Shown here in pieces: positions 5,467 to 49,387 of a stretch of DNA of 64,000 nt. The translations under genes were made by a program, and so were the position numbers. Below the pieces are notes generated by a model that saw nothing but the letters and a program-made list of their open reading frames with translations, made no database searches and was not told the origin of the DNA. This DNA is from Acetobacterium woodii (GTDB lineage: Bacteria > Bacillota > Clostridia > Eubacteriales > Eubacteriaceae), in the NCBI GenBank assembly GCA_016213825.1, contig JACQZP010000021.1, positions 124,001 through 188,000 on the forward strand, in the 5' to 3' direction. Every line of letters starts with the position of its first letter. Position 1 is the first letter of the stretch.

Positions 5467-5637
5467 TAGGCATTTGCGAAATTAAAAAACATCGAACAAT
5501 GGTTGCTTTGGGTACAGTTTCCACAAACAATTTCGTAACGTGTAGGCGAACAGTTCATCAAACTGTCCGCAGTACAGTGTAGAAATTGTTTTGTGCGAAA
5601 CTGGACACAAAGCTCAAGGCACTTTCGCAATTACCTA
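5467..5637 (-). repeat. Palindromic leader element, copy A
   Basis: About 171 bp with near-inverted ends (TAGGCATTTGCGAAA against TTTCGCAATTACCTA) and a long imperfect central palindrome ending in an ACAGTT/AACTGT tip. It is the reverse complement of the copy at 23105. It lies 26 bases before the antiporter start codon, so it would form a hairpin in that gene's leader. A 10-bp repeat TATTTTATCT at 5458-5467 and 5640-5649 could be a target-site duplication, but the area is AT-rich. Confidence 0.85.
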
Positions 5638-5746
5638 ATTATTTTATCTTATATTACCGCATTATCCTCTTTTTCTCAAGAAATTCCGTCACTTTTGCAC
5701 CGGACGCATTTAATTCTCAGTCTTTGGCGTTTTTTAAGCCATTTTT

Positions 5747-5775
5747 TTGTAAACTTTTTCATTTTGTGCTATAAT
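5747..5775 (+). promoter_or_regulatory. Sigma-A type promoter of the PutP-like gene
   Basis: TTGTAA at 5747-5752 and a perfect TATAAT at 5770-5775 are separated by 17 bases. The promoter lies about 30 bases before the symporter start and is outside the palindromic element. Confidence 0.6.
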
Positions 5776-5803
5776 ACGTTGAATTTATATTAGGGGGTAA
5801 AGA

Positions 5804-7366
5804 ATGAATTCTGATTCAATTCAAATACTGATCGCCATGGTCATTTATATCGCGGCGATACTCGGTATTGGTGTGTATTTTTTGAAAATCGCCAACGAAA
5901 ATAGTGACAACTATTTTATCGGCGGACGGACTCTGGGACCATGGGTTTCAGCGATGAGTGCGGAGGCATCCGACATGAGCGGTTGGCTCTTGATGGGATT
6001 ACCTGGCGTGGCCTATTGGTGTGGTTTAAGCGATGCTTTCTGGACAGCTCTGGGGCTTGCAATAGGAACCTATCTAAACTGGAAAATTACCGCCAAACGA
6101 CTGCGAAATTATTCAGTAGTTGCCGGTGATGCCATCACGATTCCGGAATTTTTCAGCAATCGCTTTAAAGAAAATAAGAAAGTGATTCTGTTGATTGCTT
6201 CGGTATTTATTTTGGTCTTTTTTACGGTTTATGCAGCCAGCTGTTTTGTGACCGTGGGCAAACTGTTTAATTCACTTTTCGGTATTCAATACCAGATCGT
6301 CATGATCGCAGGGGCATTTTTTGTTATTTTATATACCTTATTAGGTGGCTTCCTGGCGGAAAGTGTTTCGGATTTTATGCAGGGCGTGATTATGATCATC
6401 GCTTTGATTCTGATCCTCGTTGTTGGTGTTGCGACTGCCGGCGGCATTGGCAATGTGATTGAGAATGCCCAATCGATTCCGGGCTTTTTTGATTTCTTTG
6501 GAATTGCCAGTCCTACGGTGGTGGACGGCGTCCAACAGCTCAGTGCATCGGGAACGCCTTTATTTGGCGATGCGCTGCCCTACACCTTCTTAACGATCCT
6601 CTCGACCCTGTCCTGGGGTCTTGGTTACTTTGGTGTTCCCCAGGTATTGCTGCGGTTTATCGCGATTCGGGATGCCGCTGAGATTCCCAAAGCCAGACGA
6701 ATTGCCACCACCTGGTGTGTAATTTCACTGTTTGCCGCTGTCATCATTGGCTTAATCGGTCGGGTCTTATTCCCAGCAGATCTGCTGACAGCCAGTGGTG
6801 CGGAGAGTATTTTTATTACCATGTCAACGAATCTGCTGCCACCGCTGCTCGCCGGATTTGTAATGGCCGGTATCCTGGCCGCGACGATGAGTTCTTCGGA
6901 CTCCTATCTGCTGATTGCCGCCTCAGCGTTCTCTAAAAATATTTATGAGGGCATCCTGAAAAGAGATGCCACTGAAAAGCAAATCATGCGGGTTTCTCAT
7001 ATCACCCTGATTGCCGTCTCGTTGATCGGGATTATTATCGCTCTTGATGAAACCAGCATCATCTTCAAGGTTGTCTCCTTTGCCTGGGCCGGTTTCGGTG
7101 CCACCTTCGGACCGCTGATGCTCTTCTCCTTGTTCTGGAAACGAACAACGCGAGAAGGTGCCATCGCCGGGATGCTGGCCGGTGGCGGGATGGTCTTTAT
7201 CTGGCGGCTGTTGATTAAACCGTTAGGCGGAGTCTTCGGTATTTACGAATTGCTACCGGCCTTCTTAATATCGTGTGCCTTTATTGTGGCGGTATCCCTG
7301 ATGACCAAGGAACCGTCTCAGGAAATTCAGGATGAATTTGAACAAGCGAAAGCCGCTTCAATTTAA
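5804..7366 (+). CDS. putP: Sodium/proline symporter, SSS family
   Basis: Sodium-driven uptake of proline or a related solute at the cytoplasmic membrane. At 520 residues it has the family length, with about thirteen membrane segments. The N-terminal part carries the PutP-like core YFIGGRTLGPWVSAMSAEAS near residues 38-57. RILFPADLL-like and AATMSSSDSYLL segments follow, the latter matching the TM8 sodium-site region. TAGGGGG precedes the start, with a good promoter at 5747-5775. It is monocistronic, with a terminator after it. Substrate assignment within the SSS family is less certain than the family itself. Confidence 0.85.
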   Translation: MNSDSIQILIAMVIYIAAILGIGVYFLKIANENSDNYFIGGRTLGPWVSAMSAEASDMSGWLLMGLPGVAYWCGLSDAFWTALGLAIGTYLNWKITAKRLRNYSVVAGDAITIPEFFSNRFKENKKVILLIASVFILVFFTVYAASCFVTVGKLFNSLFGIQYQIVMIAGAFFVILYTLLGGFLAESVSDFMQGVIMIIALILILVVGVATAGGIGNVIENAQSIPGFFDFFGIASPTVVDGVQQLSASGTPLFGDALPYTFLTILSTLSWGLGYFGVPQVLLRFIAIRDAAEIPKARRIATTWCVISLFAAVIIGLIGRVLFPADLLTASGAESIFITMSTNLLPPLLAGFVMAGILAATMSSSDSYLLIAASAFSKNIYEGILKRDATEKQIMRVSHITLIAVSLIGIIIALDETSIIFKVVSFAWAGFGATFGPLMLFSLFWKRTTREGAIAGMLAGGGMVFIWRLLIKPLGGVFGIYELLPAFLISCAFIVAVSLMTKEPSQEIQDEFEQAKAASI

Positions 7367-7387
7367 GTATATTTAATTTAATGAGAC

Positions 7388-7426
7388 AAAAACAGAAACC
7401 AGCTTTTCAGCTGGCTTTTGTTTTTG
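7388..7426 (+). terminator. Terminator of the PutP-like gene
   Basis: CCAGC at 7399-7403 pairs with GCTGG at 7410-7414 around a TTTTCA loop. A-rich and T-rich arms extend the stem and a T run follows. It stands 22 bases after the symporter stop. Confidence 0.8.
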
Positions 7427-7533
7427 TCGATGATTCCGTACAGACTAATTGTCACCGTAGTTTTGTCACAAAAAAATATTTTGCGACAAAACTTGGTAAT
7501 TATTTTATCCTCAATAAATCGTTGCCGCATCAC

Positions 7534-8340
7534 CTAACTGTTACTGTCTGACATTTCCGGCATCAACCGATAATGATTGCGATAGAACTGAATCCCTGCC
7601 AACCCGATCAGGAGGATGATTCCCAGTATGACGATCACCGGTAATAAACGGTATTGTCCCTGAAATCCGGTGGGTGACATTAAGGACTGATAGATACCAA
7701 AGTAGCCCCAGGCGACGGGAATGGGAACGATGGCATTTTTGGTGTTTAATACAACAATCACGGTCAAACCGACGGCGACTGCCAAAACGATCACACTCCA
7801 AATTTCCGGGGATATGCCAAATCCACTCCATTCAATCTTAACGAGCCATGCCGCCGTATTAACAACCGTTGCAATCAGTAGCCAGCCGGCGTACATCCCA
7901 AAAGCCGCTGGCAACAGCCAGCTGTTTTTGGTTTGAATGGTCCCCAATTGTTTGATGATCAATGCCAGGATGATGGCAAAGGCAAAGATAAAAATGGTCG
8001 CCAAGCCGATTTGCGTATAGGAAAAACAGACGATCCAGATCATGTTTAATCCACAAGACAGCCAGAACAGCCGACTGATCTGGTCAATGACACTGGCATA
8101 ATAAGCATCCTGATGCTTGATAATCATGACAATCAGTGCGGCAAACAGCAAGGTGTAAATGACACTCCAGATACTAAAGGTAAAGGGTGCCGGTGTTATT
8201 AAGGTTGCGTACATATCTGAAACGGCTTTTTGTGATAACCCATTAAAGAAACCAAACGCACCCAACCCATTGATCACTAACGTCATGACTAAAAGCACCA
8301 GATTAATCCATGCTTTTGTTAATTGATTTAAATTTTTCAT
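7534..8340 (-). CDS. TspO/MBR-related membrane protein
   Basis: Membrane protein of 268 residues with about eight hydrophobic segments. The segment TPAPFTFSIWSVIYTLLF near residues 48-65 and the Trp-rich helices later resemble the TspO/MBR (tryptophan-rich sensory protein) superfamily, which binds porphyrins and other hydrophobic ligands. Classic TspO is about 160 residues with five helices, so this is the longer, divergent form. It stands alone, convergent with the PutP-like gene. The function is not established; a transport or sensing role is only inferred from the superfamily. Confidence 0.6.
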   Translation of the reverse strand: MKNLNQLTKAWINLVLLVMTLVINGLGAFGFFNGLSQKAVSDMYATLITPAPFTFSIWSVIYTLLFAALIVMIIKHQDAYYASVIDQISRLFWLSCGLNMIWIVCFSYTQIGLATIFIFAFAIILALIIKQLGTIQTKNSWLLPAAFGMYAGWLLIATVVNTAAWLVKIEWSGFGISPEIWSVIVLAVAVGLTVIVVLNTKNAIVPIPVAWGYFGIYQSLMSPTGFQGQYRLLPVIVILGIILLIGLAGIQFYRNHYRLMPEMSDSNS

Positions 8341-8452
8341 CTTTTTTCTCCACTCTTATGATTTTCAAAACCTTTACCTTATAGTTTCCCATTTTTTATT
8401 TTTTCAAACAAAATTATGATTTAAGAACAAGCAAAAAAAATAATTGCAAAAA

Positions 8453-8484
8453 AACAGGAAGCATAAACGACGCTTCCTGTTTTT
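8453..8484 (-). terminator. Terminator of the Crp/Fnr gene
   Basis: ACAGGAAGC and GCTTCCTGT form a 9-bp stem, flanked by A-rich sequence on one side and T-rich on the other. It therefore has the shape of a terminator in both directions. Leftward it follows the Crp/Fnr gene. Confidence 0.75.
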
Positions 8485-8624
8485 TATGTATTAATTATCC
8501 TGTTACTATTTAAAAGCTAGCTATTATTGTACTTTAAAAGCACTTTGCTTACAAGCTATTCAGTTGCTTAAAAGAATGACTTTTTGGGGTCCAAGCAATC
8601 AACTCGCCATGTCGTTTGTTATTT

Positions 8625-9314
8625 TTACTGCATCGTCTTTATTAATTCATCCAGCGACACTATTTTAAACGAATTCTGGTAATAATCCAGCAAGCCTTCT
8701 TCTTTCATGCGACTCAGTTCCCGGCTCATGGAGGTGCGGCAAACATTGAGGTATTCGGCTAATTCATTGCGATTGGGAACAATGTCAAAACTGAGGCTGT
8801 TATTCTTTTGGGATTCATTAATCAGATAGGCTGCCAGCTTTTCCCGCATGCCCTTTAACATCAGCAGTTCAATTTTAGAATTCATCCTGAAGTTTTTTTC
8901 ACCCAAAATCATCATCATGTTTTGAATCAGTTGGAAATGAAAATTACAGGCATTGCCACAGGTTTTGATAATCCGCTCAAACGGAATAATCAGGATTTGG
9001 GAAGCCTCTTTCACACGGACACTTACCGGTGCGATTCTGGCTTTGGTACAGACAATCCCTTCCCCAAAAATACTGGAAGGCCCTAAAAAATCCATGATCA
9101 GTCTGGCTCCGGCTGGGTTTTCCTTGATAATCTCAACCGATCCGGTCAACACAATTCCAACAAAACTAATTTGGCTGCCCGCTAAAAATACATAGTCACC
9201 AATGCTGAATTTTTTAATATGGGCATTGATGCAGGTAATCAGTTTTTTGTATTCGTCTTCTTTTATATTCTCAAACAACGGACATTTTTCCATAACAGCA
9301 TAAAATTTCTCCAT
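8625..9314 (-). CDS. Crp/Fnr family transcriptional regulator
   Basis: Regulator of 229 residues: a cyclic-nucleotide-binding-like beta-roll (about 20-130), a dimerisation helix, and a Crp-type HTH with NELAEYLNVCRTSMSRELSRMKEEG near residues 183-207. There is no N-terminal FNR-type Cys cluster; Cys residues are scattered, including two in the first 30 residues. Nearby genes (DUF1858, hemerythrin) and a palindromic operator at 9731-9754 suggest it senses nitric oxide, oxygen or redox stress, perhaps via bound haem as in HcpR-type regulators. That is inference. The recognition sequence itself is not proven. Confidence 0.82.
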   Translation of the reverse strand: MEKFYAVMEKCPLFENIKEDEYKKLITCINAHIKKFSIGDYVFLAGSQISFVGIVLTGSVEIIKENPAGARLIMDFLGPSSIFGEGIVCTKARIAPVSVRVKEASQILIIPFERIIKTCGNACNFHFQLIQNMMMILGEKNFRMNSKIELLMLKGMREKLAAYLINESQKNNSLSFDIVPNRNELAEYLNVCRTSMSRELSRMKEEGLLDYYQNSFKIVSLDELIKTMQ

Positions 9315-9400
9315 CAGGACACCTGCTTTCTATTTTCTGCAATCAAACTGGCTTTTTAGAATTATTATATGACAAGTGGTTTATTGCGTAAACTGTTTAA

Positions 9401-9428
9401 ACAAAAAAGGAACCATTGCGGTTCCCTT
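9401..9428 (-). terminator. Terminator of the DUF1858 gene
   Basis: AAGGAACC at 9407-9414 pairs with GGTTCCCTT ending at 9428. Read leftward the hairpin is followed by TTTTTTG. It lies 16 bases after the DUF1858 stop. Confidence 0.8.
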
Positions 9429-9443
9429 AAGGTTTGGCCAAAC

Positions 9444-9653
9444 TTAGGCTGGTAATGTCGCCAGATGAGCATTGAGTTTGTCAACTAAAGCATCGGCGCT
9501 GGTGCTGTGAACCTGACAAGCTTCTTCAATTGTTTCATTTTGAGAAGATGGGCATCCCAGACAATGCATCCCGATTTCTAATAGAATCGGGGCAAATCCG
9601 CCATCGATTCTTAATAATTCACCGATTTTCATATCTTTGGTAATCTTTTGCAT
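9444..9653 (-). CDS. DUF1858 (hybrid-cluster-associated disulfide domain) protein
   Basis: Small cytoplasmic protein of 69 residues. It has the DUF1858 signature, IDGGFAPILLEIGMHCLGCP near residues 16-35 with a Cys-x-x-Cys pair. Proteins of this family are often encoded beside hybrid-cluster (hydroxylamine/NO) or molybdopterin enzymes and are thought to act in redox or sulfur chemistry. A perfect AGGAGG precedes the ATG. It is transcribed away from the hemerythrin operon, from a promoter that would share the palindrome at 9731-9754. Confidence 0.85.
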   Translation of the reverse strand: MQKITKDMKIGELLRIDGGFAPILLEIGMHCLGCPSSQNETIEEACQVHSTSADALVDKLNAHLATLPA

Positions 9654-9708
9654 GGTAGAACCTCCTAAAATTTACTGAATTAACAGTCTTTTGTTTTATC
9701 TTGAACCT

Positions 9709-9776
9709 AGTATAACACAAAACTCCTTTTAATTTGTAGCTAAAGCTACAAATTTTTTCAAAAAAATGAATATAAT
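9709..9776. promoter_or_regulatory. Divergent promoters sharing one palindromic operator
   Basis: AATTTGTAGCT at 9731-9741 and AGCTACAAATT at 9744-9754 form a perfect inverted repeat with a 2-base centre, the size and symmetry of a Crp/Fnr-family site (TTGT...ACAA). Rightward there is a TATAAT at 9771-9776; leftward a TATACT at 9714-9709. Taking start sites about 7 bases beyond each -10 box, the palindrome centre lies at about -41 of both promoters. That is the class II activator position, and neither promoter has a good -35 box. Confidence 0.6.
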
Positions 9777-9844
9777 GAACGTATCAAATAAAAACACGAG
9801 GGCATTATTAAAGAATCACCCTCAACAATTTCAGGAGGACAAAA

Positions 9845-10450
9845 ATGAGTAAATTTTTAGGACCGATTCATTATTGGGTATATAACAAAATACAGATTCA
9901 ACAGGGCATCGTAGAAGAAATTATTGGCTTATACGGCGAGCAGGACTCCAATGCCAGCGAGGTATTAAACCGACACTATGGGGTTTCACAAACCAGTCCG
10001 TTAGAAGAGATCATCGACGAGAGCAACATTCACGGGTGGCTCCAAACCAACGTTACCCGGGCGGAATACAAACTGGCCGATAGCGTAACCACACTACTCA
10101 AGAAAGATCCGGATAATTTTAAGTCGATTGAGTCGATTTTTTTCAACAAAGGCAAAGCTTTATCCCAGGATAATATGACAGCAGCGATCGCCTATAAGAT
10201 TATCAGCGACAGTCTATTGGATGGGATGCCCTGTGATCATGCCAATGTTTTAATTGAAGAAAATGATGAGCACGTCATCTGGAAGCGCAACACCTGTGTC
10301 CATACTAATTTTTGGCAGGAAGTCGGCGGCGATATTAACGTCTATTATGCGCTAAGAGAAGCCTTGATTCAGGGTTTTCTCGAGAATTCCAGGTTAGTTT
10401 ATGAAAAAACCGATGAAGCAACCAATGTAATCAGGAGGGAAAACCGATGA
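9845..10450 (+). CDS. Uncharacterised protein co-transcribed with a hemerythrin
   Basis: Soluble protein of 201 residues that I do not recognise. It is acidic and mostly helical by composition, with conserved-looking Cys and His in MPCDHANVLIEENDEHVIW and RNTCVHTNFW near residues 128-160, which might bind a metal or a thiol. AGGAGG precedes the ATG. Its TGA overlaps the ATG of the hemerythrin gene (ATGA), so the two are translationally coupled and probably work together. A role in oxygen, NO or redox stress is suggested only by the neighbours and the shared operator upstream. Confidence 0.7.
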   Translation: MSKFLGPIHYWVYNKIQIQQGIVEEIIGLYGEQDSNASEVLNRHYGVSQTSPLEEIIDESNIHGWLQTNVTRAEYKLADSVTTLLKKDPDNFKSIESIFFNKGKALSQDNMTAAIAYKIISDSLLDGMPCDHANVLIEENDEHVIWKRNTCVHTNFWQEVGGDINVYYALREALIQGFLENSRLVYEKTDEATNVIRRENR

Positions 10451-11001: not shown

Positions 11002-11051
11002 AACCGAAAAAATGACTTTAGCCTTTCAGACTCTGCCTTCATTAATGAAAG

Positions 11052-11166: not shown

Positions 11167-11239
11167 GTTCCCGTCTGCACTCAACAATTTTCAAAACCCA
11201 CTGGGTGAAATTCGAGTCATTCCACTTGATAATCGCAGA

Positions 11240-21125: not shown

Positions 21126-21310
21126 ACGCCCTTAATCCCGCTGACGGCTTTGCCGTTTTTCACCACGATGCTGTACATTAATAAGCGGCCGCAACACAAC
21201 TCAACCGCCGCCTGACTCCGATAATACAATTGCCTTCCGAATAACTTTATAACTTTGATTGAAATCACCGAAATTTCTATGGTAAAATAAAAATAACCTG
21301 ATCCTGTTGA

Positions 21311-21476
21311 AAGCATTTACGAAATTAAAAAACAGCGAACAACGGTTGCTTTGGGTACAGTTTCCACAAACGATTTCGTAACGTGTAGGCGAACAGTTCA
21401 TCGAACTGTCCGACGTACAGTGTAGAAATTGTTTTGTGCGAAACTGGGCCCAAAGCTCACGGCACTTTTGTAATTA
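21311..21476 (-). repeat. Palindromic leader element, copy B
   Basis: Same orientation as copy A and very similar in the core, with more worn ends (AAGCATTTACGAAA and ACTTTTGTAATTA). The tip is ACAGTTC/GAACTGT around AT. It ends 29 bases before the S41 peptidase start. A TATAAT at 21479-21484 begins two bases beyond the element, so this copy may lie before the transcription start. Confidence 0.85.
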
Positions 21477-21505
21477 ATTATAATACTGTTGAAAAAGGAG
21501 TTATT

Positions 21506-22990
21506 ATGAAAAAACATGAAATGCGGACACTGATGATAATTGTTGGTTTTGTTTTGGTCGTAACTGTAACCCTCTCTTGGCTCAACAAACCAAGTCCGGC
21601 AACAGATTATAACGATGATTTCAGTGCGCTTAGTTGGACAATGGCGTTTGAAGAATTGCATCAAACCCTGTCGACAGAATATGCGTTTACGGATTGGAAA
21701 GGCATCAATTGGGACCGACTCCATCAGAAGTACCTGGCTAAAATCGAAAAGGCACAGATCAATCAGGACTTTAATAGCTATTATCTCACGCTTCGTGCTT
21801 ATCTCAATGAAATCCCTGATGGACATGTGCGGATGAATAATCTCAAAGAAATCGATGACCAATACATTGGCGGCGGTTTTGGCCTGGCGGTGGCAAAAAT
21901 TGATGATGGCTCGATCATTGTCACTTGGGTGGATGAATCCAGTCAAGCCTGGACGGCCGGAATTCGTCCCGGCGATCTGCTGCTGTCCTGGAATGGCCAG
22001 CCCATTAATGAGGCCCTCGACAGCGTTTCCACCCTTTTTGGTGGAACATCGGCAACGACTGAAAATTTAGAAATAAAAAAAGCCGCCTATCTTGTCCGTG
22101 AACCCGTGGGCACCGAAATTCAGTTAAGCTATCAAACGCCGACCGCTTCTCAAGCTGCTTCGGTTTCGCTGGTGGCTTATGATGATAATGGCTTATCCTT
22201 AAGAAAAAACTATCCCGATTCGGTGGTTTCCAATAAATTGCGGGATATGTTTGTTGGTGTCGACAACCCCGATCCGGTTCCGGGCGCCATGGTGGAATCG
22301 AAGATGCTGGATGACCGCATCTGCTATCTCAAAATTTTAGGCGAATTAGATGCCGATTTGCAGGAAACCGGCACCCTTTTGTCCACCCTGGAATTGGTCA
22401 GTAAGGCGATTGATACCGCCCAACAGAATCATGCTCAGGGGCTCATTGTCGATCTGCGCAATAACATCGGCGGACTTGATCAGATGACTGCTGATATTCT
22501 GGGACATTTTTATCAACAGAAAGCATTTTTTGAATATCAGAATCTCTACAATCCAGACACCAACACCTTTGAACTGCAATCAATGCCAGACGGCTCTCAG
22601 GCATTATCCATCGAACCAGCCGAACCCTACTTTAACGGCCCAATCATTGTCCTGATCAATTCCAAATGTATCAGCTCCGGGGAAGGACTTGCCATGGGAA
22701 TGCAAAATCTGCCCAATGCCGAAACCTTCGGCTTTTATGGAACCAATGGATCGTTTGGGTTAGCTGGTGCGGAAGCAAAAATGCCCGGCGAACTCACCGT
22801 TCACTGGCCATCCGGACAATCATTAAATGAAGACAAAATAATTCAATTGGATAGCCAGCATGGCATTGGCGGCGTCAGCCCTGACATCCGACTGTCAATG
22901 ACTGCTCAAAATGCCATTCGCATTGCCAATGGCGAAGATGTCGAATTAGCCGAAGCGATTAACACACTGCACCGCAAACTGGGCAATTAG
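21506..22990 (+). CDS. S41 family peptidase with PDZ domain
   Basis: Membrane-anchored or exported serine protease of 494 residues. An N-terminal hydrophobic segment at about 9-28 is followed by a domain of about 90 residues, a PDZ domain (GGGFGLAVAKIDDG to GDLLLSWNGQPI), and the S41 core with VDLRNNIGGLDQ and the nucleophile region INSKCISSGEG near residue 389. This is the C-terminal processing peptidase/tricorn-like family. The start at 21506 has AAGGAG before it; the frame is open upstream into the palindromic element, but that part is not coding. A cell-wall or membrane protein is the likely substrate. Confidence 0.83.
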   Translation: MKKHEMRTLMIIVGFVLVVTVTLSWLNKPSPATDYNDDFSALSWTMAFEELHQTLSTEYAFTDWKGINWDRLHQKYLAKIEKAQINQDFNSYYLTLRAYLNEIPDGHVRMNNLKEIDDQYIGGGFGLAVAKIDDGSIIVTWVDESSQAWTAGIRPGDLLLSWNGQPINEALDSVSTLFGGTSATTENLEIKKAAYLVREPVGTEIQLSYQTPTASQAASVSLVAYDDNGLSLRKNYPDSVVSNKLRDMFVGVDNPDPVPGAMVESKMLDDRICYLKILGELDADLQETGTLLSTLELVSKAIDTAQQNHAQGLIVDLRNNIGGLDQMTADILGHFYQQKAFFEYQNLYNPDTNTFELQSMPDGSQALSIEPAEPYFNGPIIVLINSKCISSGEGLAMGMQNLPNAETFGFYGTNGSFGLAGAEAKMPGELTVHWPSGQSLNEDKIIQLDSQHGIGGVSPDIRLSMTAQNAIRIANGEDVELAEAINTLHRKLGN

Positions 22991-23084: not shown

Positions 23085-23104
23085 AATAGATGCACTGATA
23101 CTAT

Positions 23105-23274
23105 TTAGGTGATTGCAAAGTGCCGTGAGCTTTGGGTCCAGTTTCGCACGAAACAATTTCTACACTGTACGGCGGACAGTTCGATGAACTGTTCGCCTAC
23201 ACGTTACGAAATTGTTTGTGGAAACTGCACCCAAAGCAACCGTTGTTCATTTTTTTACTTTCGCAATTACCTAA
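23105..23274 (+). repeat. Palindromic leader element, copy C (reference copy)
   Basis: 170 bp bounded by TTAGGTGATTGCAAAG and CTTTCGCAATTACCTAA. Nested helices: CTTTGGGT 23130-23137 with ACCCAAAG 23229-23236; CAGTTTC with GAAACTG; AAACAATTTC 23151-23160 with GAAATTGTTT 23208-23217; GGCG with CGCC; ACAGTTC 23176-23182 with GAACTGT 23186-23192. It ends 30 bases before the cysK start codon and is most likely transcribed in its leader. Confidence 0.88.
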
Positions 23275-23304
23275 CAGATACCATCTACAGAAAGGACAAC
23301 TCAA

Positions 23305-24210
23305 TTGCAGAAACTTATTTACAATAATATTTTAGAAACCATCGGCCATAGTCCGATGGTGCGGATTAATCACTTGAATCCCAACCCAAATGTGGAGATG
23401 CTGGCCAAGTATGAAGGGGTTAACCCAACCGGAAGCATTAAAGATCGAATTGCCCTGAAAATGTTGGAGCAGGCCGAGGCTGAAGGCGTTTTAACCAAAG
23501 ACAAGATCATTATCGAACCGACCAGTGGGAATACCGGGATTGGTTTAGCGATGATCGCTGCCGTTAAAGGCTATCAGCTGGAAATCGTCATGAGCGAAGC
23601 CGTCTCGATTGAACGCCGTAAAATGATTCAGGCCTTTGGTGCCACGGTGACTTTGACCTCGCCAACCGAAGGAACCGATGGTGCGATTCGCAAGGTGCGG
23701 GAATTAATTGCCGCCTATCCGGACCGTTATTTTAATCCCGATCAATTCAGCAATAAATATAATAAGCTGGCCCACTATTCCACCACCGCCGAGGAAATCT
23801 GGGAACAAACCCAGGGGAAAATCACCCACGTTGTTTCTTCTTTAGGTACCTCCGGCACCATTATGGGGGTTGGGATGGGCCTGCGGGGTCATAATCCGGA
23901 GGTGAAAATTGTCGAAGCCCAGCCGGTGCTTGGTCATTACATCCAGGGCCTGAAAAACATGGACGAAGCCATTGTGCCAGCCCTGTATCAACCGGATGAA
24001 ATTGATGAGCACATCATGGTTGAATCGGAAATCGCCTTTGATTTTGCCCGTCAGATTGTTAAAAAAGAAGGGATCTTTGTGGGCATGAGCAGTGGCGCAG
24101 CGATGTATGCTGCTACCGAAGTGGCTAAAAAAATTGATTCCGGTGTCATCGTAGTCATCTTCCCGGACCGGGGCGAAAAATATCTCAGTACCGATTTGTT
24201 TAAGCTGTAA
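23305..24210 (+). CDS. cysK: Cysteine synthase (O-acetylserine sulfhydrylase)
   Basis: PLP enzyme of 301 residues that makes cysteine from O-acetylserine and sulfide. The PLP lysine is Lys46 in PTGSIKDRIA, the substrate loop is EPTSGNTGIGLA near residues 72-83, and the phosphate-binding loop is SLGTSGTIMGVG. The start is TTG at 23305, with AAAGGA about 7 bases before it; no ATG is available nearby. At 301 residues it is close to the CysK norm. Its leader contains palindromic copy C, which may affect its expression. Confidence 0.9.
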   Translation: MQKLIYNNILETIGHSPMVRINHLNPNPNVEMLAKYEGVNPTGSIKDRIALKMLEQAEAEGVLTKDKIIIEPTSGNTGIGLAMIAAVKGYQLEIVMSEAVSIERRKMIQAFGATVTLTSPTEGTDGAIRKVRELIAAYPDRYFNPDQFSNKYNKLAHYSTTAEEIWEQTQGKITHVVSSLGTSGTIMGVGMGLRGHNPEVKIVEAQPVLGHYIQGLKNMDEAIVPALYQPDEIDEHIMVESEIAFDFARQIVKKEGIFVGMSSGAAMYAATEVAKKIDSGVIVVIFPDRGEKYLSTDLFKL

Positions 24211-28636: not shown

Positions 28637-31105
28637 TTATAAATCAGCCAGGGTAATGTAGGCTTTGGGGTTTGTTCCTTCACTGGAGACAACGGTTCCC
28701 TTCGGAACGATCTGAATCCGAATCGCTTCTAAACGCAGAGATTGGCCTTCGGTTCCGGCGCGCTCGCCATTTTTCGCCCAATTCAGCCAACCAAAATTCT
28801 TGGCGTGAACCTGATAATAAACATCATATTTTTCGGCCATGGCTCCGGTTAACTGGATCTCAATCGCTTCCAGTCGGAGCCCTTCACCCACGGTTCCGCT
28901 GATTTGTCCGGCACTTTTAAAGCTTGGTTCCCAGCCCTTGTTCTGAATATGACTCTTGTACTCAATGCTTCCGGAATCCGCAAAACCATCAAGGTTTATT
29001 TTGATCGCTTCCAGACGCAGGGATTGGCCGGTGGTGCCGCTGATGGCGCCATTTGTAACGGCTTGTTGCCAGCCGATATTCTGGATCTCGGTGCTGTAAC
29101 TGACGTTACCGGCAGTCGTGGTGGCAATCGTCACCTGCTGAGCGCCTTTGGTGGTGTTGTTTTTGTTGTAAACGGCTTCGTACACGGTATATTTTTTAGC
29201 CGGTGTTCCGGTTACCTGATGGGCTTCCAGACTGGCCTGATTAATCACCGCCTCGGTAGCGATTGGTAGTACAAACCCGGCCTTGTCACTGAGGGTCAGG
29301 CGCTCCGGCTGATAGCTAGGATCGTAATCCTGCCGGGTATCACTAGAATCCAGGAAATTAACTAGCGGCAGGCCGTTATCGTAACCTAAAATTTGGGCAT
29401 TCACCTGCTGCTGGCCGGTGCTCATGGAGATGTTCATGTGCTGGGCGCCAATGCCAAGGGCTTCCGTTCCGGTGGCGCTGAATTTTCCGGCACTGTTGTC
29501 AATGATGGCATTTAACCCGGCATCCTTAATGGTCATTTGATCATTGGCAACACAGCCAATGGCCATGTTATCGCCATTGACCTTAATGTCCGCAACCGCA
29601 TTGTTTTTGAGGCTGACATTCGCCCCCTGGATCCCCATGACCCCCTGGCTGTTGACCGCTTCATCAAGGATTTCCGAATTGACGGTGACGGTGCCGCCAT
29701 CAATGGCCAAGTCCCCAGCGACCCGTAAGCCCTGTTGGAAGATCACCTGTTTGTGATTGCTACTGAGATTGGTCACCAGACTACAGTTTTTGAGGGTCAT
29801 ATTGCCGGCACCCGGCTCGGCGCTCTCACTGCGGTCGGTTGTCACGCCAGCGACGACGATGGGGTCCTCATTAATCGGTTGGTCGGTGGCACTGATTGCC
29901 CCGGTCAACGTGATGGTGGCCCCTTCTGCGGTAAATTGCCCATCACCTTTTAAGGCCACAACGGTGCCCATTTTGGCTTTGGCATCCAGCACGGCTCCCG
30001 GTTTCATGGCAAAATTTCCCACCGCATCATAGGAAGGTAACAGCTGCAGAGCGTTGACTTCCCCGGCAACGGTCAGGGCCGTGTTTTCGGCCATGGCCAA
30101 ATCGGCACAGATGGCACCAATGTATTTATTATTGATGGTGACCTTGGCACTGTCGGTCAGCTTGACAAAGGATTCGGCATAAAGTCCGTAAAAATCAAAA
30201 ACCGTCGGCGTCTGTTTGGGGCCGTCCAACAGCAATGTGCCGGTGCCGCCAATCGTCAAGGTCATGCGGTCGTTAGACGCCCCGCTGGTGGTATGGAAAT
30301 AAAGATCGGCAAAGCTCTTTCTAACCTTATCGGTATCCTGATAACCCTTTTCGGTATCGGCAACAATGGTATTGTCACCAATCAGCTCGATTTTTACCGC
30401 TTTAGCGGGATCATCTGAGGTAGCCGCATACTGCATGCCGACACCACTCATAAAACTATTATAATCGTTGTGATAGGTGAGTTTGGCATTGTTCAGGGTC
30501 AGGGTTTTGCCATCGGCACTTAAGCTGGCCTGACCGCCACCGGTCAGATTGACCGTCTGCCCCATTAAAACGATCTGGTCGCCCAGGGTGGCATAATAGG
30601 CCGGTGAACCGCTGTCAAGGAGATAGGTTGCCGGGTTGGAAACCGTCACCTTGGAGGCATCAGTTTTACTGGTCACCACACAACGCACCACCGTCGTATC
30701 CATCAGGCCCGTACTGATTTTGTTTTCCAGAGTGGCCCGTTGGGAGCCTTCGCCAATAAAATCGTACCATTCATCCGGTTGCCCTTCTTTATGCAATTGC
30801 CATTGCCATTGAAAATCACAGGTTTCCGGATTGGCCACCACAATGGACATATTGGCCGGTTGAGGAATCGTAAAGTGGACATCCTGGGGTTGGGTAATAA
30901 TCACCGGCCCCCCGGCGGTGGAAACCGCATTACTGGCCGTCCCCGTTTCTAAAGCGGGCATCCCGGACCAGCTGGCCGAACCCGTCCCCAAGACCCCATC
31001 ATTTTTGACCCAATTGCTGGTATCCTGAGCCAATACACTGGTGGCTGAAAACAGCGACACCGCCAGCACCAAACAAACAGCCGCTAAAATTTTGATCCGT
31101 TTCAT
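28637..31105 (-). CDS. Secreted surface protein with ChW repeats
   Basis: Exported protein of 822 residues. A signal peptide covers about 1-27 (KRIKILAAVCLVLAVSLF...VLA). An Ig-like stretch and a long beta-strand-rich region with many Thr, Asn and Gly follow. Three clostridial hydrophobic-with-Trp (ChW) repeats close it, each with a GW pair and G-x-x-LRLEAI (near 690-815). ChW repeats anchor proteins at clostridial cell surfaces and are linked to polysaccharide or host interaction. The start at 31105 has GGAGG 7 bases before it. Palindromic copy D ends 27 bases upstream. Confidence 0.85.
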   Translation of the reverse strand: MKRIKILAAVCLVLAVSLFSATSVLAQDTSNWVKNDGVLGTGSASWSGMPALETGTASNAVSTAGGPVIITQPQDVHFTIPQPANMSIVVANPETCDFQWQWQLHKEGQPDEWYDFIGEGSQRATLENKISTGLMDTTVVRCVVTSKTDASKVTVSNPATYLLDSGSPAYYATLGDQIVLMGQTVNLTGGGQASLSADGKTLTLNNAKLTYHNDYNSFMSGVGMQYAATSDDPAKAVKIELIGDNTIVADTEKGYQDTDKVRKSFADLYFHTTSGASNDRMTLTIGGTGTLLLDGPKQTPTVFDFYGLYAESFVKLTDSAKVTINNKYIGAICADLAMAENTALTVAGEVNALQLLPSYDAVGNFAMKPGAVLDAKAKMGTVVALKGDGQFTAEGATITLTGAISATDQPINEDPIVVAGVTTDRSESAEPGAGNMTLKNCSLVTNLSSNHKQVIFQQGLRVAGDLAIDGGTVTVNSEILDEAVNSQGVMGIQGANVSLKNNAVADIKVNGDNMAIGCVANDQMTIKDAGLNAIIDNSAGKFSATGTEALGIGAQHMNISMSTGQQQVNAQILGYDNGLPLVNFLDSSDTRQDYDPSYQPERLTLSDKAGFVLPIATEAVINQASLEAHQVTGTPAKKYTVYEAVYNKNNTTKGAQQVTIATTTAGNVSYSTEIQNIGWQQAVTNGAISGTTGQSLRLEAIKINLDGFADSGSIEYKSHIQNKGWEPSFKSAGQISGTVGEGLRLEAIEIQLTGAMAEKYDVYYQVHAKNFGWLNWAKNGERAGTEGQSLRLEAIRIQIVPKGTVVSSEGTNPKAYITLADL

Positions 31106-31132
31106 TTGCAAACCTCCGTTTTTCTTTTTTCA

Positions 31133-31303
31133 TTAGGTAATTGCGAAAGTGCCATTAGCTTTGTGCGCAGTTTCGCACGAAACAATTTCTACACTGTACG
31201 GCGGACAGTTCGCTGAACTGTTCGCCTACACGTTACGAAATTGTTTGTGGAAACTGCACTCAAAGCAACCATTGTTCGATTTTTTTAATTTCGCAAAAGC
31301 TTA
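31133..31303 (+). repeat. Palindromic leader element, copy D
   Basis: Starts TTAGGTAATTGCGAAAG and ends TTTCGCAAAAGCTTA. The core is like copy C, with the tip ACAGTTC GCT GAACTGT. It lies 27 bases before the ChW gene start but in the opposite orientation to that gene; since the unit is nearly palindromic, both strands give a similar fold. Confidence 0.85.
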
Positions 31304-43033: not shown

Positions 43034-43143
43034 TTGCCTCCTTTTTAAGATACAATATTCTACTATTGTGAATGTACTTAATTATACAACAAAATCGTGT
43101 AAACAGTTAACCGTTGTAAAAGCGGGCATCTTTCGATCTCCGA

Positions 43144-43175: not shown

Positions 43176-43195
43176 ATCATTTAGTGAAATCGCCA

Positions 43196-43822: not shown

Positions 43823-43978
43823 TTTTTCACCTCATCATTCTTACCAAAGGTAAGACCTTTCAACTAAGTTAAGTGTGGCTAGCATTGCGGACTAAAAACA
43901 TCTGGTTTGCCGTTGAGCATATCTGGGATGTTATCCATGATATGCTGAAGACTTCTAACCTTTTTCAGTATCAGCATG

Positions 43979-44551: not shown

Positions 44552-44635
44552 TCTATTACTCCTTCATATCTCATTGCTTCAGGAAACTGCACGACCGCTT
44601 TTAAAAGTGTGTTAAGTTTCATTTACTATTAATTT

Positions 44636-44794
44636 TCATAAATTGTTACCGCCAATAAAGGGATCGCCATCATCTACAAATTTCTGAATGATCACGCTGG
44701 GATCAGCGATGTGGCCGTATTTTACATTTTCCTTTAGTTTCACTGGCAGCCCTTTAGCTGGGATATGGTACGGCTGGACAAAAATAATTGTCAT
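44636..44794 (-). pseudogene. Fragment of an ABM-like domain protein
   Basis: Open frame of 52 residues starting 9 bases after the thioredoxin gene stop. Its YGHIADPSVIIQKFVDDGDPF (in two parts) matches YGLISDPIVIIQEVVDDGDPF of the larger gene at 46168-47037 at most positions. Only the end of the domain is present and no close ribosome site is seen, so it is probably a remnant of a duplicate; a real small gene cannot be excluded. Confidence 0.5.
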
Positions 44795-44803
44795 GTGGCA
44801 AAT

Positions 44804-45142
44804 TTATTTTTTAGGTTCTCCATATAAAAGCGCGTCGTATCGGGAAATTTTTTCTTCAAGATTAATCACGCTAATAATACCAGCTTCGCGGACGGTTTCT
44901 TTCCCTTGAACAAATAGCATCACAACCGGCGCTGAAAAGATACTATAACTGGCCGTCAGTTCCGACACGTTTTGCGCATCAACCTTAACCGCCCGAATAT
45001 TTGGATAGCGGTCAATCATTGCCTCAATTTTGGGCTGCAGATCCCGACACACGCCGCAGGTATTGCTGCCAAAATAAACCAGCAACATGTCATTTTTCTG
45101 AATCAGTTGATGCATTTCTTTGATTGTCTTGACTGGTTCCAT
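44804..45142 (-). CDS. Thioredoxin-family protein
   Basis: Protein of 112 residues with thioredoxin fold. The active site is Cys29-Gly-Val-Cys32 and the cis-Pro lies in SAPVVMLF. It lacks the WCGPC of standard thioredoxin, so it is a variant with unknown partner. AGGAAA precedes the ATG. It lies 34 bases after an alpha/beta hydrolase gene in the same direction. Confidence 0.85.
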   Translation of the reverse strand: MEPVKTIKEMHQLIQKNDMLLVYFGSNTCGVCRDLQPKIEAMIDRYPNIRAVKVDAQNVSELTASYSIFSAPVVMLFVQGKETVREAGIISVINLEEKISRYDALLYGEPKK

Positions 45143-45176
45143 TTATTTCCTCACAATCACACTTCTGCCGTGTTAA

Positions 45177-46118
45177 TCAGTTTTCCTTCGTCGCAATGAT
45201 CGCATTGATGAAGTCGATCATGCCATCCTCGACCTCGTCACGAATGTCCCGATAATTATGAATTTCATGACGATACCCGGAATAAATCTTTGTTTTGACC
45301 TGATTTCCGGTATCTGCCAGCCAGTTTGACACCGCATAGACACCTTCTCCGAAAAGGCCGACGGGGTCCTGATCACCGGCAATATTATAAACCGGAATGG
45401 CAGCCGGAACTTTCTCGGCCCATTGGATGCCAAGAATACTATCAATCATCATGATAAAATCGTAGGTTGAGCGGATATTCGGTGGACTGGTGAAATTGTT
45501 GAAGGGATCACTGGCATGATCGGCAACAATATCCGGATCACCGGCGATCCAATCATTGGGGGTCAGGGGATCCGTGATGCGGTCGGTCATCCATTCGAAA
45601 AGAACCCCTAAATAACTGGGATCGACTTCTTCGCCTTTGCCTTCATCGATGCACTTTTGCAGCGCTGCCGCCAATTCCTGTGTCTTTGGAAAAACCGACG
45701 AGGTTCCGCAGAGCAGCAAACCGTCGATGCCTTCCCCATAAATTGTCGCATAAGATCGAGCAATCATCGAGCCCATGCTGTGACCGTACATAAAATATGG
45801 CAGGTCAGGATAGTCTGCCTGGACCAATTGTCGCAGGCTGTGTTCATCTTCGGCCATGGTCAGATAGCCTTTGTTTCCCCAGTCACTCCAGTTTCCGGAT
45901 TCCGCGGCGGTTTTACCATGTCCCACATGATCATCTGCCGCAACCACAAAGCCAGCCTCATTCAATTTGAGAATCATATGCAGATAGCGTCGTGAATGTT
46001 CGCCAAAACCATGGACAATTTGAACAACCCCCCGGGGTTTGCGAATCGGCTTGTAAATCCAAGCTTGGATGGTATCCTTCTCATTAAATGATCTGAAACT
46101 TCTTTCTTCAAATGCCAT
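45177..46118 (-). CDS. Alpha/beta hydrolase, lysophospholipase-like
   Basis: Hydrolase of 313 residues. The nucleophile elbow is GHSMGSM near residues 112-118, with the oxyanion segment VHGFGEHSRRY near 35-45. The catalytic Asp and His lie towards the C-terminus (GDQDPVG and YRHEIHN). This matches the monoacylglycerol lipase/lysophospholipase group. Cytoplasmic; AGGAGG precedes the start. Confidence 0.88.
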   Translation of the reverse strand: MAFEERSFRSFNEKDTIQAWIYKPIRKPRGVVQIVHGFGEHSRRYLHMILKLNEAGFVVAADDHVGHGKTAAESGNWSDWGNKGYLTMAEDEHSLRQLVQADYPDLPYFMYGHSMGSMIARSYATIYGEGIDGLLLCGTSSVFPKTQELAAALQKCIDEGKGEEVDPSYLGVLFEWMTDRITDPLTPNDWIAGDPDIVADHASDPFNNFTSPPNIRSTYDFIMMIDSILGIQWAEKVPAAIPVYNIAGDQDPVGLFGEGVYAVSNWLADTGNQVKTKIYSGYRHEIHNYRDIRDEVEDGMIDFINAIIATKEN

Positions 46119-46167
46119 TGTCTTCCTCCTGTAAATTTATTATCAGTCTGCATGCAGCCGGATGATC

Positions 46168-47037
46168 TTACGTTAAGTGCACCGGGCTCGCACCCTTTTT
46201 TACCTGCTCCAGCAGGGTTTTTCTGGGGTAAAAACCAAACCGCGCATAAAAGCCGAAGGCCTTCTCGTTGCCAACTGCCACCGACACGGTTTTCGTGTGG
46301 GCCCCCATTTCATCCATCCAGGCAATGGCATTGCTTAACAATGTCTCACCAAGGCCCAGTCCCCGATAGTCGTTCTGCACATATAAGGATTCCATTTCAG
46401 CATCACCCGAAAATTCAACCCGGGAAATACAGTATCCGATATTTTGGGCGGTTTCCTGATCAACCGCAATTTCAATTCGCAGCTGCCCATTTTTGGCTTT
46501 TTGGAGCAGATTTTTTTTGCGCTGCTCAAAAGTAAACGCTTCATAGTGGGATTTAAAATTCACGGCGGCATCGCGATGATGCCGGTTCAGCGCTTCCCAC
46601 AGCTGCTGGATGTCATCCAGCAACGATTCATCGCCGCTGCGATAGGTAATCGCTGTAATTGGGGGTTTTTCGTGTTGCATCGGTTTTTTCGCCTTGTCTT
46701 GCCCCCCGATATCATCTTGGGCTGTGAACGGATCGCCATCATCCACGACTTCCTGAATGATCACAATTGGATCAGAGATCAAGCCATAGTGTTCATCCTC
46801 AGGATAGGTCACCGCAATCGTCGGTTCCTGCCCGGCATAGGCAATCATGCTGGCCATTGAATCCCACTTTGTGCAGAGAAAAAAATGAGCATAGTCACCT
46901 TGTTCGAGGATTTTCAAAAAAGCCCCCCGATTGCCCGGGATGGCCAGGGTATCTTTAACCCCGGTTTGATATTCATATTGTTCAAATGCCGCCCGCATTT
47001 TAAGCGGCACAATCCCATGCCAGGTTCGTGAAAACAT
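46168..47037 (-). CDS. ABM-like domain fused to GNAT acetyltransferase
   Basis: Protein of 289 residues with two parts. Residues 1-105 form a dimeric alpha-beta barrel of the antibiotic-biosynthesis-monooxygenase type (SRTWHGIVPL at the start, then FFLCTKWDSM and YPEDEHYG). Residues 140-289 form a GNAT acetyltransferase (LYVQNDYRGLGLGETLLSNA; NEKAFGFYARFGF). The linker is acidic. Fusion of these two folds is unusual; the first may bind a substrate or control the acetyltransferase. AAGGAG precedes the ATG. Confidence 0.78.
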   Translation of the reverse strand: MFSRTWHGIVPLKMRAAFEQYEYQTGVKDTLAIPGNRGAFLKILEQGDYAHFFLCTKWDSMASMIAYAGQEPTIAVTYPEDEHYGLISDPIVIIQEVVDDGDPFTAQDDIGGQDKAKKPMQHEKPPITAITYRSGDESLLDDIQQLWEALNRHHRDAAVNFKSHYEAFTFEQRKKNLLQKAKNGQLRIEIAVDQETAQNIGYCISRVEFSGDAEMESLYVQNDYRGLGLGETLLSNAIAWMDEMGAHTKTVSVAVGNEKAFGFYARFGFYPRKTLLEQVKKGASPVHLT

Positions 47038-47120
47038 GATAACTCCTTTTATACTATTCTCGCCAGCACATCTGGCGGATTAACATTTTCATTTGTTCCT
47101 CTTTACGACGCCGTTTGTCA

Positions 47121-47498
47121 TCATTGATTTCGCAGTATTGCATTGGCAATTAGTCGATCAAATTTTCTGACATCGACCCCTTTTCGTAAATTCACTTTAA
47201 TATGACCGGCACGGGTCCAGAGTTCAACTTCAGCATTTAGATCAAGGATCTTGCCGGCATTTTCAGTTGACCACATATTAATTGACGAGTATGGTAACGA
47301 GTATACTTCTACTTTTTTCCCACTCAATCCCTGGGCATCTCTTACAATTAAACGTTTATTCGTAAAAACCGCACTGTCGCGGATTGTTTTATAAGCGGCT
47401 ACCGCCTCTTCCCCTTCAACTAACAATTCCTGCACATCTTCTGGAATGGGACACTCCGAAATAAAGGTCCATAATAAAATTTGACTTGTTTCTGCCAT
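47121..47498 (-). CDS. Bacterial PH domain protein
   Basis: Protein of 125 residues made of one bacterial PH domain (bPH family): a helical start, then VFTNKRLIVRD near 45-55, YSLPYSSINMWS near 66-77, and a closing helix. Such domains may bind peptides or lipids; the function is unknown. AAAGGAG precedes the ATG. No membrane segment. Confidence 0.75.
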   Translation of the reverse strand: MAETSQILLWTFISECPIPEDVQELLVEGEEAVAAYKTIRDSAVFTNKRLIVRDAQGLSGKKVEVYSLPYSSINMWSTENAGKILDLNAEVELWTRAGHIKVNLRKGVDVRKFDRLIANAILRNQ

Positions 47499-47863
47499 TT
47501 CAATCTCCTTTTGAGTTAATATTTTTTGTTTGCTTCTGAATAATTAATGATGCATTTTCTTTTTTTTAAATATTTACAAAGCTAGTATGATCATGTTCCT
47601 TTGAAATTACTTAGTCAAGTATGACCATCACCGAGGCTGCTTTTGGCTGGTGGAATCAGGCCGGAAAGTGATCATTTAAAAAAGCGTCGTTTGACACAGC
47701 AAAACATTTATTTTAATGCCTATGTAATCGGTTCGAATGGATTTATTGTATCATTTAATGGCGTTGATGGAAAGTTTTTATCATTAATTAGGAAAAAAAA
47801 CAAACTCCCAAGATTGACTCTTGAGAGTTTATTAAATCGTTGCTTGTTTATCTCTAAAACCAT
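47499..47863. other. Boundary gap before the phage-like module
   Basis: About 365 bases. It holds the PH gene's leader and, at the left of the lysis genes, their terminator (47801-47831). No attachment site or repeat could be matched with the other end of the module. Confidence 0.4.
47801..47831 (-). terminator. Terminator of the lysis gene module
   Basis: AAACTC-CAAGA pairs with TCTTG-GAGTTT around TTGAC. Read leftward it is followed by eight T. Confidence 0.85.
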
Positions 47864-48274
47864 TTATTCGTGTCGCTTCTCTTCCACCTCCCCCAACTCC
47901 CGAATCACGGCTTCCAGCCGCTTTGGTAAAGGCACCCCCAGCCGTCCGAGGTTTTCCAGAATACTCAGGCCCTCGTTGGAAAGATAGAAGCCGATCATCG
48001 CTACCCGCAGCGGAGCCCCGGCACCACCAAGAAGGGTGATGTCCAGCAGGTTCCCCATCCCCACGACCATAAAGATCAGGATTTTTTTAAGAATGCCCCG
48101 GAAGCCCTGGGCGCTGGAAAGTTTCTTTTTCTGAAGCGCACAGAGCACTCCGGTTACGTAGTCCATCACCACAAAAGCGATCAGACATTGTAAAAAGCCG
48201 TCAAAGCCGCCGAGCATTTGGCCGAGCATCCCGCCGACCAGGGCAAAGATCAGCGAGATTTCACTGATTTTCAT
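47864..48274 (-). CDS. Phage holin, Cph1/TcdE family
   Basis: Membrane protein of 136 residues with three or four hydrophobic segments and the family segment FVVMDYVTGVLCALQKKKLSS near 35-55. Such holins let endolysins pass the membrane at phage lysis or release proteins. Its ATG overlaps the stop of the endolysin gene (TAATG), the usual lysis cassette coupling. Confidence 0.88.
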   Translation of the reverse strand: MKISEISLIFALVGGMLGQMLGGFDGFLQCLIAFVVMDYVTGVLCALQKKKLSSAQGFRGILKKILIFMVVGMGNLLDITLLGGAGAPLRVAMIGFYLSNEGLSILENLGRLGVPLPKRLEAVIRELGEVEEKRHE

Positions 48275-48819
48275 TACACCTCGCAGTGAACAAAGCCCTG
48301 CTCCAGATAGAGGATGGTCATAAGGCCCAGACTTTCGGCGATACTGGCGACTCGTGTAATATCAATCCCCGGAGCATAGAGATCAGCAGCCTGGCCGACA
48401 CAGTGTCTGGAACCCGGGATGCCGCCCACTTCGGCGTTGCGGATTTCGCAGCGCAGCCCTGAGGTGATCACCACCGGAGCATTCAGGGCATTGCGGAGGG
48501 CTTCCAGCTTCAGTAACAAGCCCAGATCCATCGCTGCCGGAAAGCCGTCACAATAAATGCCCTGACAGTCGCAGGCAAATTCGACCTTGGCAAAGTGCGG
48601 GGTGGCGCCATCACCGTCCATTGAAATCACTGACAACTGTTCCCGAAACAGTCGGTTTTCGGTGAGCGGCCCCACCAAGCCATCCGGTTCCAGACCGGCA
48701 TCTTTTTGAAAGGCAGCCACGGCCTTTTTGGTTTTAGGGCCGTCTTTGCCATCGACTTTTAAGGGGCCATAACCCCGGTCATTGAGAGCGGTTTGAATTT
48801 TTTTGATAAAGGCGTTCAT
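48274..48819 (-). CDS. Endolysin: peptidoglycan-binding domain plus M15 peptidase
   Basis: Protein of 181 residues. An N-terminal PG-binding domain (KVDGKDGPKTKKAVAAFQKD near 20-39) is followed by an M15A D-Ala-D-Ala peptidase-like domain with the zinc motif SRHCVGQAADLY near 140-151. It would cut cell-wall peptide links. It is translated just before the holin and lies in a small phage-like module. Confidence 0.87.
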   Translation of the reverse strand: MNAFIKKIQTALNDRGYGPLKVDGKDGPKTKKAVAAFQKDAGLEPDGLVGPLTENRLFREQLSVISMDGDGATPHFAKVEFACDCQGIYCDGFPAAMDLGLLLKLEALRNALNAPVVITSGLRCEIRNAEVGGIPGSRHCVGQAADLYAPGIDITRVASIAESLGLMTILYLEQGFVHCEV

Positions 48820-48925
48820 TTTGTTTTCCTTTCTTAATTGACATTGCGTTGCCCCAGCGGGGCGGGCGTGTGAACCACGCCCTTACGAATCTGAACAAAT
48901 CAGCTACAGAACAGGAACCAGCGCC

Positions 48926-49150
48926 TTAGCTCATTGAAAAGGCGGATTTGTCAGTGATCACCAGTTCGGCTTTAACCTTGGCGGTCAGCAGCTGGCCATC
49001 GGGGGCGAAGATGGCTTTTTGAATCATCCCGGCCATGGCGGTGTTGACTTCGTCAACGGTGAGCCCGACTTTGGGATCGGTGATGGACATGGTGGTGGTT
49101 TTTAAGTCGGCCCGTTTAAAGGTCAGTTGTAGTACAGTATTTGCTGCCAT
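48926..49150 (-). CDS. DUF2922 protein
   Basis: Protein of 74 residues matching DUF2922 (LQLTFKRADLKTTTMSITDPK near the start; TVDEVNTAMAGMI helix). GGAGGT lies before the ATG at 49150. The frame is open further upstream into the palindromic element, but that part is not coding. DUF2922 and DUF1659 genes commonly lie side by side in Firmicutes; their role is unknown. Confidence 0.82.
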   Translation of the reverse strand: MAANTVLQLTFKRADLKTTTMSITDPKVGLTVDEVNTAMAGMIQKAIFAPDGQLLTAKVKAELVITDKSAFSMS

Positions 49151-49270
49151 TTGTTTACCTCCTTTCTTAGTTTGCGGGTTAGTGGCAATGATGCTGTCAA
49201 CCCAATTGTTGTTCCCTTTGGGGACAACGGGCGATTGATAATCGCCCCTTGATAAATGCCGAGCCATTTG

Positions 49271-49387
49271 TTGCTTAGCATTTAGTTTCCACAAACAATT
49301 GTGTAACGTGTAGGCGAACAGGCGGTAGCCTGTCCGACGTACAGTGTAGCAATTGTTTCGTGCGAAACTGAATGCTAAGCGCACGGC
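49271..49387 (-). repeat. Palindromic leader element, copy E (short, diverged)
   Basis: About 117 bp lacking the outer ends of the others. Read in the orientation of copy C it keeps CAGTTTCGCACGAAACAATT and GTTTGTGGAAACT. The outer helix is GCTTAGCATT/AATGCTAAGC instead of CTTTGGGT/ACCCAAAG, the middle one has TTG/CAA, and the tip is ACAGGC/GCCTGT. All changes keep pairing. It lies 120 bases before the DUF2922 start. Confidence 0.82.

Follow-up and report, generated by a model that had tools for sequence, protein, structure and literature searches.

In a stretch of 64,000 nucleotides from Acetobacterium woodii (assembly GCA_016213825.1, contig JACQZP010000021.1, positions 124,001 to 188,000 of the forward strand; hereafter the window), a nearly palindromic repeat of approximately 171 bp was confirmed in five copies by alignment and repeat search, and four of these end shortly before the start codons of unrelated genes. 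The repeats are very probably miniature inverted-repeat transposable elements (MITEs) mobilised by the transposase of a DUF772-type insertion sequence (IS), with a Shine-Dalgarno (SD)-like DNA motif as the target and a cut at fixed spacing before that motif. IS-plus-MITE pairs are of a known kind. An SD-based target rule for such an element was not found in the open literature searched, most subscription journals and ISfinder being outside the search.

Target sites of the MITE

The unit is bounded by terminal inverted repeats (TIRs) of the sequence TAGGTAATTGCGAAA, and the refined borders of its copies run from TAGG to CCTA. Target duplications of 9–13 bp were present at 43 unique sites, where the element, 52–180 bp long, is too short to encode the 485-aa transposase described below. 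The TIRs, the duplications, the non-coding size and an autonomous element with equal ends together place the repeat among the MITEs.

The motif count was restricted to sites that have a duplication, each being scored on whichever side gave the better motif; at least five of the six letters of AGGAGG were found beside the duplication at 28 of the 43 sites, and at none of the 43 on the other side. The gap between duplication and GGAGG was 5 bp at 20 of the 28 sites, 8 bp at 5, and 2, 6 and 10 bp at one site each. When 63 exact sites (33 MITE, 30 IS), without the two inner copies of a tandem trio, were aligned on the end of the duplication nearest the motif, the resulting profile displayed G (.65), A (.89), G (.92) and G (.73) at positions +7 to +10 past the duplication; the duplication itself was merely AT-rich.

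Empty sites were found in relatives. Among 16 of the 17 cysK loci (one was left out at a contig edge), the MITE occupied the leaders of the window's genome and of congener G010, and 14 orthologous leaders were empty. The leader of the S41 peptidase gene carries the element in the window's genome and lacks it in all six other genomes with the gene, and the empty site is clean in G010.

An earlier note on this DNA had offered either a leader acting on translation or transcript stability, or a mobile repeat that chooses such sites. The mobile repeat is supported by the TIRs, the duplications, the empty sites, and an autonomous IS whose ends match and which chooses the same kind of site. A conserved cis-regulatory leader, held in place by selection for its hairpin, would agree with the very stable predicted fold of the cysK leader with its MITE (−87.4 kcal/mol, z = −9.5, the SD being unpaired in the fold) and with stems kept in 42 copies, but it is highly improbable: the genes are unrelated, both orientations occur, the copies have target duplications, 14 of the 16 cysK leaders lack the element, and covariation, at 6 of the 39 predicted pairs, is weak and does not establish selection on the RNA. 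The IS moreover occupies the same place without the 171-bp hairpin, so that a regulatory leader is not needed for the even distance. Later regulatory use of single copies is possible. The hairpin in a leader would mostly be tolerated by the host, because promoter, SD and gene stay intact upon insertion of the MITE.

The autonomous insertion sequence and its transposase

A search of six congeners for DDE_Tnp_1 gave 21 loci, three of them with the MITE TIR. An autonomous IS (L117-L119) of 1760 bp was identified that encodes a 485-aa transposase and has ends matching the MITE, the two being equal over the first 15–16 bp. The ends of the repeat do therefore match a transposon, as the earlier note had considered, although one newly found here rather than a named one. 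The transposase scored above both Pfam gathering thresholds, with 40.1 bits for DUF772 (cut-off 23.1) and 23.9 bits for DDE_Tnp_1 (cut-off 23), and DUF772 and the DDE domain were conserved across 16 relatives. By protein search the transposase, whole or broken, was present in 10 of the 19 Acetobacterium genomes, with ten copies in G014 and two decayed ones in G009. The G014 copies look young, because the four that were scored are identical in protein. Two genomes of the genus have IS insertion sites in common with records under the names A. wieringae and A. fimetarium. Among Clostridia and Halanaerobium, relatives were found at identities as low as 34%: 33 loci of named genomes, mostly from these two groups and including one metagenome-assembled genome labelled Bacteroidales, and further relatives in 26 of the 391 genomes in the class.

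The transposase had no match among phages. Three plasmid records matched, two of them with most of the protein, and in neither of these two is the transposase listed as a gene, in a gene table that is incomplete. In the Butyrivibrio plasmid pCY360 (L250:900-1510) the IS abuts another far-end TIR, by eye that of a second copy. Among PDB sequences no match was found. The predicted structure had a mean pLDDT (predicted local distance difference test score) of 74.8 and a Foldseek search with it returned nothing at E ≤0.001; the best, weak match was the piggyBac transposase (E = 2.2e-3, template modelling score 0.26). piggyBac targets TTAA, whereas the duplications of the present element are 10–14 bp long and follow no TTAA rule. 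The nearest named transposase family, IS1182 (NCBIfam NF033551), matched residues 262–461 with 61.5 bits, far under the equivalog cut-off of 270 bits, and membership was rejected. Lone TIRs of the window's genome were considered as ends of an autonomous element and rejected, those examined being 52–66 bp derivatives, one 147-bp copy, or partnerless ends.

Target sites of the insertion sequence

The IS occurs at the same kind of site, with its transposase-5′ end facing the motif. At 46 of 53 unique IS sites five or six of the six letters of AGGAGG were present, with GGAGG 14–22 bp outside that end; the motif was found in none of 42 far flanks and in 6.6% of shuffled flanks. The 53-site count dropped 23 loci: 6 repeated a site already counted, 11 lacked the N-terminus, 3 had a short or masked flank, and 3 had no recognisable SD-facing end. 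An unrelated G009 IS in two copies, taken as a control, had the motif in 0 of 4 flanks, too small a sample to weigh much. At the 27 IS sites with both duplication and motif, the duplication measured 10–14 bp and the gap was 5 bp in 17, 8 bp in 6 and odd in 4; L157, from the 8-bp class, also has GGAGG at 5 bp. Because the duplication varies in length while the gap stays mostly 5 bp, the cut on the motif side is anchored and the far cut floats.

The transposase, or a partner bound to it, probably reads GGAGG in the DNA. In Tn7 (TnsD) and Ty3 (RNA polymerase III factors) a bound factor recruits the transposition machinery, and a host protein bound to GGAGG-like DNA might likewise recruit the transposase here. 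A motif 5 bp outside an anchored cut, with the far cut floating, looks as if a neighbour-bound factor set the position; the spacing is, however, equal in relatives at 34–100% identity and in unrelated hosts, which fits the element's own protein better, and recruitment by a host protein is considered unlikely.

Insertions within genes bear on what is being read. Two of 23 rejoined IS copies, both in G014, interrupt a long open reading frame (ORF) at an internal GGAGG; rejoining covered seven of the eight unique G014 sites and left out the tandem trio. The DNA motif and not a start codon therefore appears to be read. Targeting that follows translation or transcription (a ribosome footprint, promoter opening or an R-loop), with the SD a mere neighbour, would explain that most sites lie in 5′ leaders and that the cysK copy stands shortly after a TATAAT box, which by eye is present in all compared orthologous leaders. 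Against such targeting, the ruler is the motif rather than the start codon (below), two of the seven rejoined G014 sites are within ORFs at GGAGG, the motif occurs at some MITE sites that have no start codon (e.g. L099:11032 and L096:1705), and most noncoding motifs are ribosome-binding sites in any case: of 285 occurrences of AT-flanked GGAGG in the two sampled genomes, 84 were coding and 201 noncoding, and 163 of the latter were ribosome-binding sites. We regard it as very unlikely. Reading of the DNA motif, together with the loss of harmful insertions, would be expected to give about the observed distribution of sites. A site that survives insertion may also be used again, so that an array such as the tandem trio of G014 (L151:695-5966), in which three IS copies have one common 11-bp duplication and one SD, is expected.

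Distance to start codons

Positions were sampled over 864 kb of two genomes, comprising the window, 400 kb more of its contig, and 400 kb of G009 in stretches chosen mostly where TIR matches lay. The 72 sampled copies include weak partial matches with extrapolated edges, and the home-made gene caller has a preference for starts that have an SD, which affects copies and random points equally. In 47 of the 72 copies an edge lay 24–31 bp from a start codon that reads outward; for random noncoding points the proportion was 2.76% (binomial P = 3.9e-55). Copies scattered at random relative to starts, by which the earlier note would have been contradicted, were thus not what was found. This distance class held 33 of the 42 full copies, 25 of 38 copies in the window's genome and 22 of 34 in G009. 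Only 3 copies were located 33–60 bp from a start (9.2% expected) and 3 at 61–150 bp (23% expected). The MITE was oriented one way relative to the gene in 31 cases and the other way in 18. The start codon was rejected as the ruler; the distances from edge to motif and from motif to start were uncorrelated (r = −0.11, n = 36), which makes the motif the ruler.

No copy was located within a called gene (0 of 72), as would also follow from random insertion and subsequent selection removing all but the leader insertions. The region 33–150 bp upstream of starts, however, holds 6 of the 72 copies as opposed to approximately 32% of random points, and neither the fixed 5-bp gap nor the orientation of the IS would be explained; the fixed gap already refutes such a history, the probability of which is negligible.

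A proposed mechanism of target choice

In the proposed mechanism, non-autonomous MITEs would be moved by the DDE transposase of the DUF772-type IS. The transposition machinery would target an SD-like DNA motif with GGAGG as its core, GAAAGG or AAGGAG also being accepted. On one strand it would cut at constant spacing ahead of the motif, in most cases 5 bp, and on the other strand 10–14 bp farther out, within AT-rich DNA. The target duplication would then arise through gap repair. The element would end just before an intact SD and the gene would stay translatable, the IS with its transposase-5′ end facing the motif and the near-palindromic MITE either way round. Selection would purge insertions at GGAGG within genes, and tandem arrays would be possible as the site is left intact after each insertion.

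Several observations weigh against this mechanism. The five-of-six motif is missing at 7 of the 53 IS sites; weaker purine runs are present at four of these, of AAGG type at L160, L161 and L191 and as GGAGAG at L215, where it stands at the apparent 5′ end of a transfer RNA gene and the end match is weak; L250 abuts another element, and L171 and L200 have nothing of the kind. The gaps of L201 and L188 are odd. A second gap class of 8 bp, often with GAAAGG, departs from the usual 5 bp; it includes the IS sites L174, L175, L178, L180 and L204 and the MITE sites L015, L017, L083, L093 and L097. Among the sampled MITE copies 25 of 72, many of them partial or decayed, are not at 24–31 bp from a start. 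The structure model does not reveal which part of the transposase reads the motif. Furthermore, the window's genome had no IS match in the genus-wide transposase search, and G014, the sole congener with ten IS copies, had no MITE match. Because of these two results, mobilisation of the MITEs in trans by the DUF772-type IS is an inference.

In all 13 transposase leaders that were folded (L117, L155, L161, L170, L174, L178, L180, L187, L189, L190, L201, L207 and L216), a CTCC-type arm lying upstream is paired with the SD of the transposase itself. The SD and arm form perfect repeats of up to 12 bp, and the arm changes together with the SD in distant relatives. This pairing may damp transposase translation. 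That the IS family is a separate class of SD-homing, nucleic-acid-guided transposons, in which the CUCC arm of the leader also pairs with the GGAGG of the target, is quite improbable; if it were so, one leader structure would both damp translation of the transposase and find the next ribosome-binding site.

Distribution and size of the MITE

A search of the window's genome with the reference copy (23105-23274) gave 40 scored places among 148 first-look candidates. Allowing up to two mismatches, the TIR pattern matched 104 times in this genome compared with 26 for a reversed control, and 308 times in congener G009 compared with 31. From the latter numbers a single genome would contain approximately 140 copies, well over a hundred. 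The MITE was matched in 17 of 18 other Acetobacterium genomes and in none of 42 genomes outside the genus.

Longer MITEs in the window's genome (L019, L020, L022 and L029; contigs C15 and C20) have an extra palindromic insert of approximately 80–90 bp in one arm, at the identical place in three copies and at the mirror place in one. An element was also seen before what is apparently the same molybdate-permease-type gene within an operon in both the window's genome (L046:2442-2493) and G009 (L085:8079).

Relation to known systems

Tn7 and yeast Ty3 display safe-site targeting, in which insertion occurs at a fixed place beside landmarks that genes need. The present element likewise inserts at constant spacing from a landmark essential to the gene, but it is a one-gene IS, its landmark is an SD motif in DNA, and no targeting subunit is known for it. 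If the proposed mechanism holds, safe-site targeting would here be reduced to a simple form with a single gene, in which the landing signal of an IS family found across Clostridia and Halanaerobium is among the commonest functional motifs of bacterial genes. It would explain how an element can attain well over a hundred copies in one genome without gene breakage, would supply 5′ leaders with hairpins by a natural route, and might perhaps become a tool for placing DNA downstream of a promoter and ahead of the ribosome-binding site. It would also be a caution that leader repeats at even spacing can stem from target choice and not from regulation.

MITEAba12 with ISAba12 resembles the present pair in being a short non-coding element with TIRs common to its IS and duplications of approximately 9–11 bp. 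The MITEAba12 paper describes AT-rich target duplications without any trend in sequence (PMC6382973), whereas the present MITE has a GGAGG motif at fixed distance. For an IS1182 member, 4-bp repeats are given (PMC3196728), in contrast to the duplications of 10–14 bp of the present IS.

The copies in the window

All five copies reported in the earlier note were recovered, by a profile built from 20 full copies as well as by alignment and repeat search; copies 1 to 4 scored 197, 183, 192 and 192 bits, and the decayed copy 5 scored 108 bits. The distances to the four genes were refined from the even 26–30 bases of that note to 26, 24, 31 and 27 bp, and the gene identities agreed. A ribosome site in the gap was likewise seen, as GGAG or GGAGG at copies 1, 2 and 4 and as GAAAGG at copy 3. 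One end of the unit faces the gene in two of these copies and the other end in two, consistent with the described two facing and two opposing copies of a nearly palindromic unit.

Copy 1 (5467-5637, minus strand) lies 26 bp from the TTG start (5440, minus strand) of the Na_H_Exchanger gene (3404-5440, minus strand). Its gene-side duplication (5456-5466; 11 bp with one mismatch, L011) is followed at a 5-bp gap by GGAG (5447-5450, minus strand). Copy 2 (21310-21480, minus strand) is flanked by duplications at 21299-21309 and 21481-21491 (mutated); a 5-bp gap and GGAG (21497-21500) follow, and the Peptidase_S41 gene (21506-22990, plus strand) begins with ATG at 21506, 24 bp from the copy. Copy 3 (23106-23273, plus strand) has duplications at 23094-23104 and 23274-23284 with two mismatches, then 5 bp and GAAAGG (23290-23295), and stands 31 bp before the TTG start (23305) of the cysK-like PALP gene (23305-24210, plus strand). 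Copy 4 (31134-31303, plus strand) has its gene-side duplication at 31123-31133, a 5-bp gap and GGAGG (31113-31117, minus strand), and the ATG (31105, minus strand) of the ChW-repeat gene (28637-31105, minus strand) is 27 bp away. Copy 5, placed at 49235-49404 on the minus strand by profile and border refinement, has uncertain borders (7 of 15 mismatches at each end). For this copy no duplication was found and the SD motif was absent from its usual place; it is an exception to the distance rule, lying directly after a stop codon with the next start 83 bp off.

The comparison with Rfam (Rfam 15) gave no family at gathering score in the window. Elsewhere in the window, at 56448-57467, seven direct repeats with 120-bp spacing were seen within a 1147-aa ORF (56249-59692).

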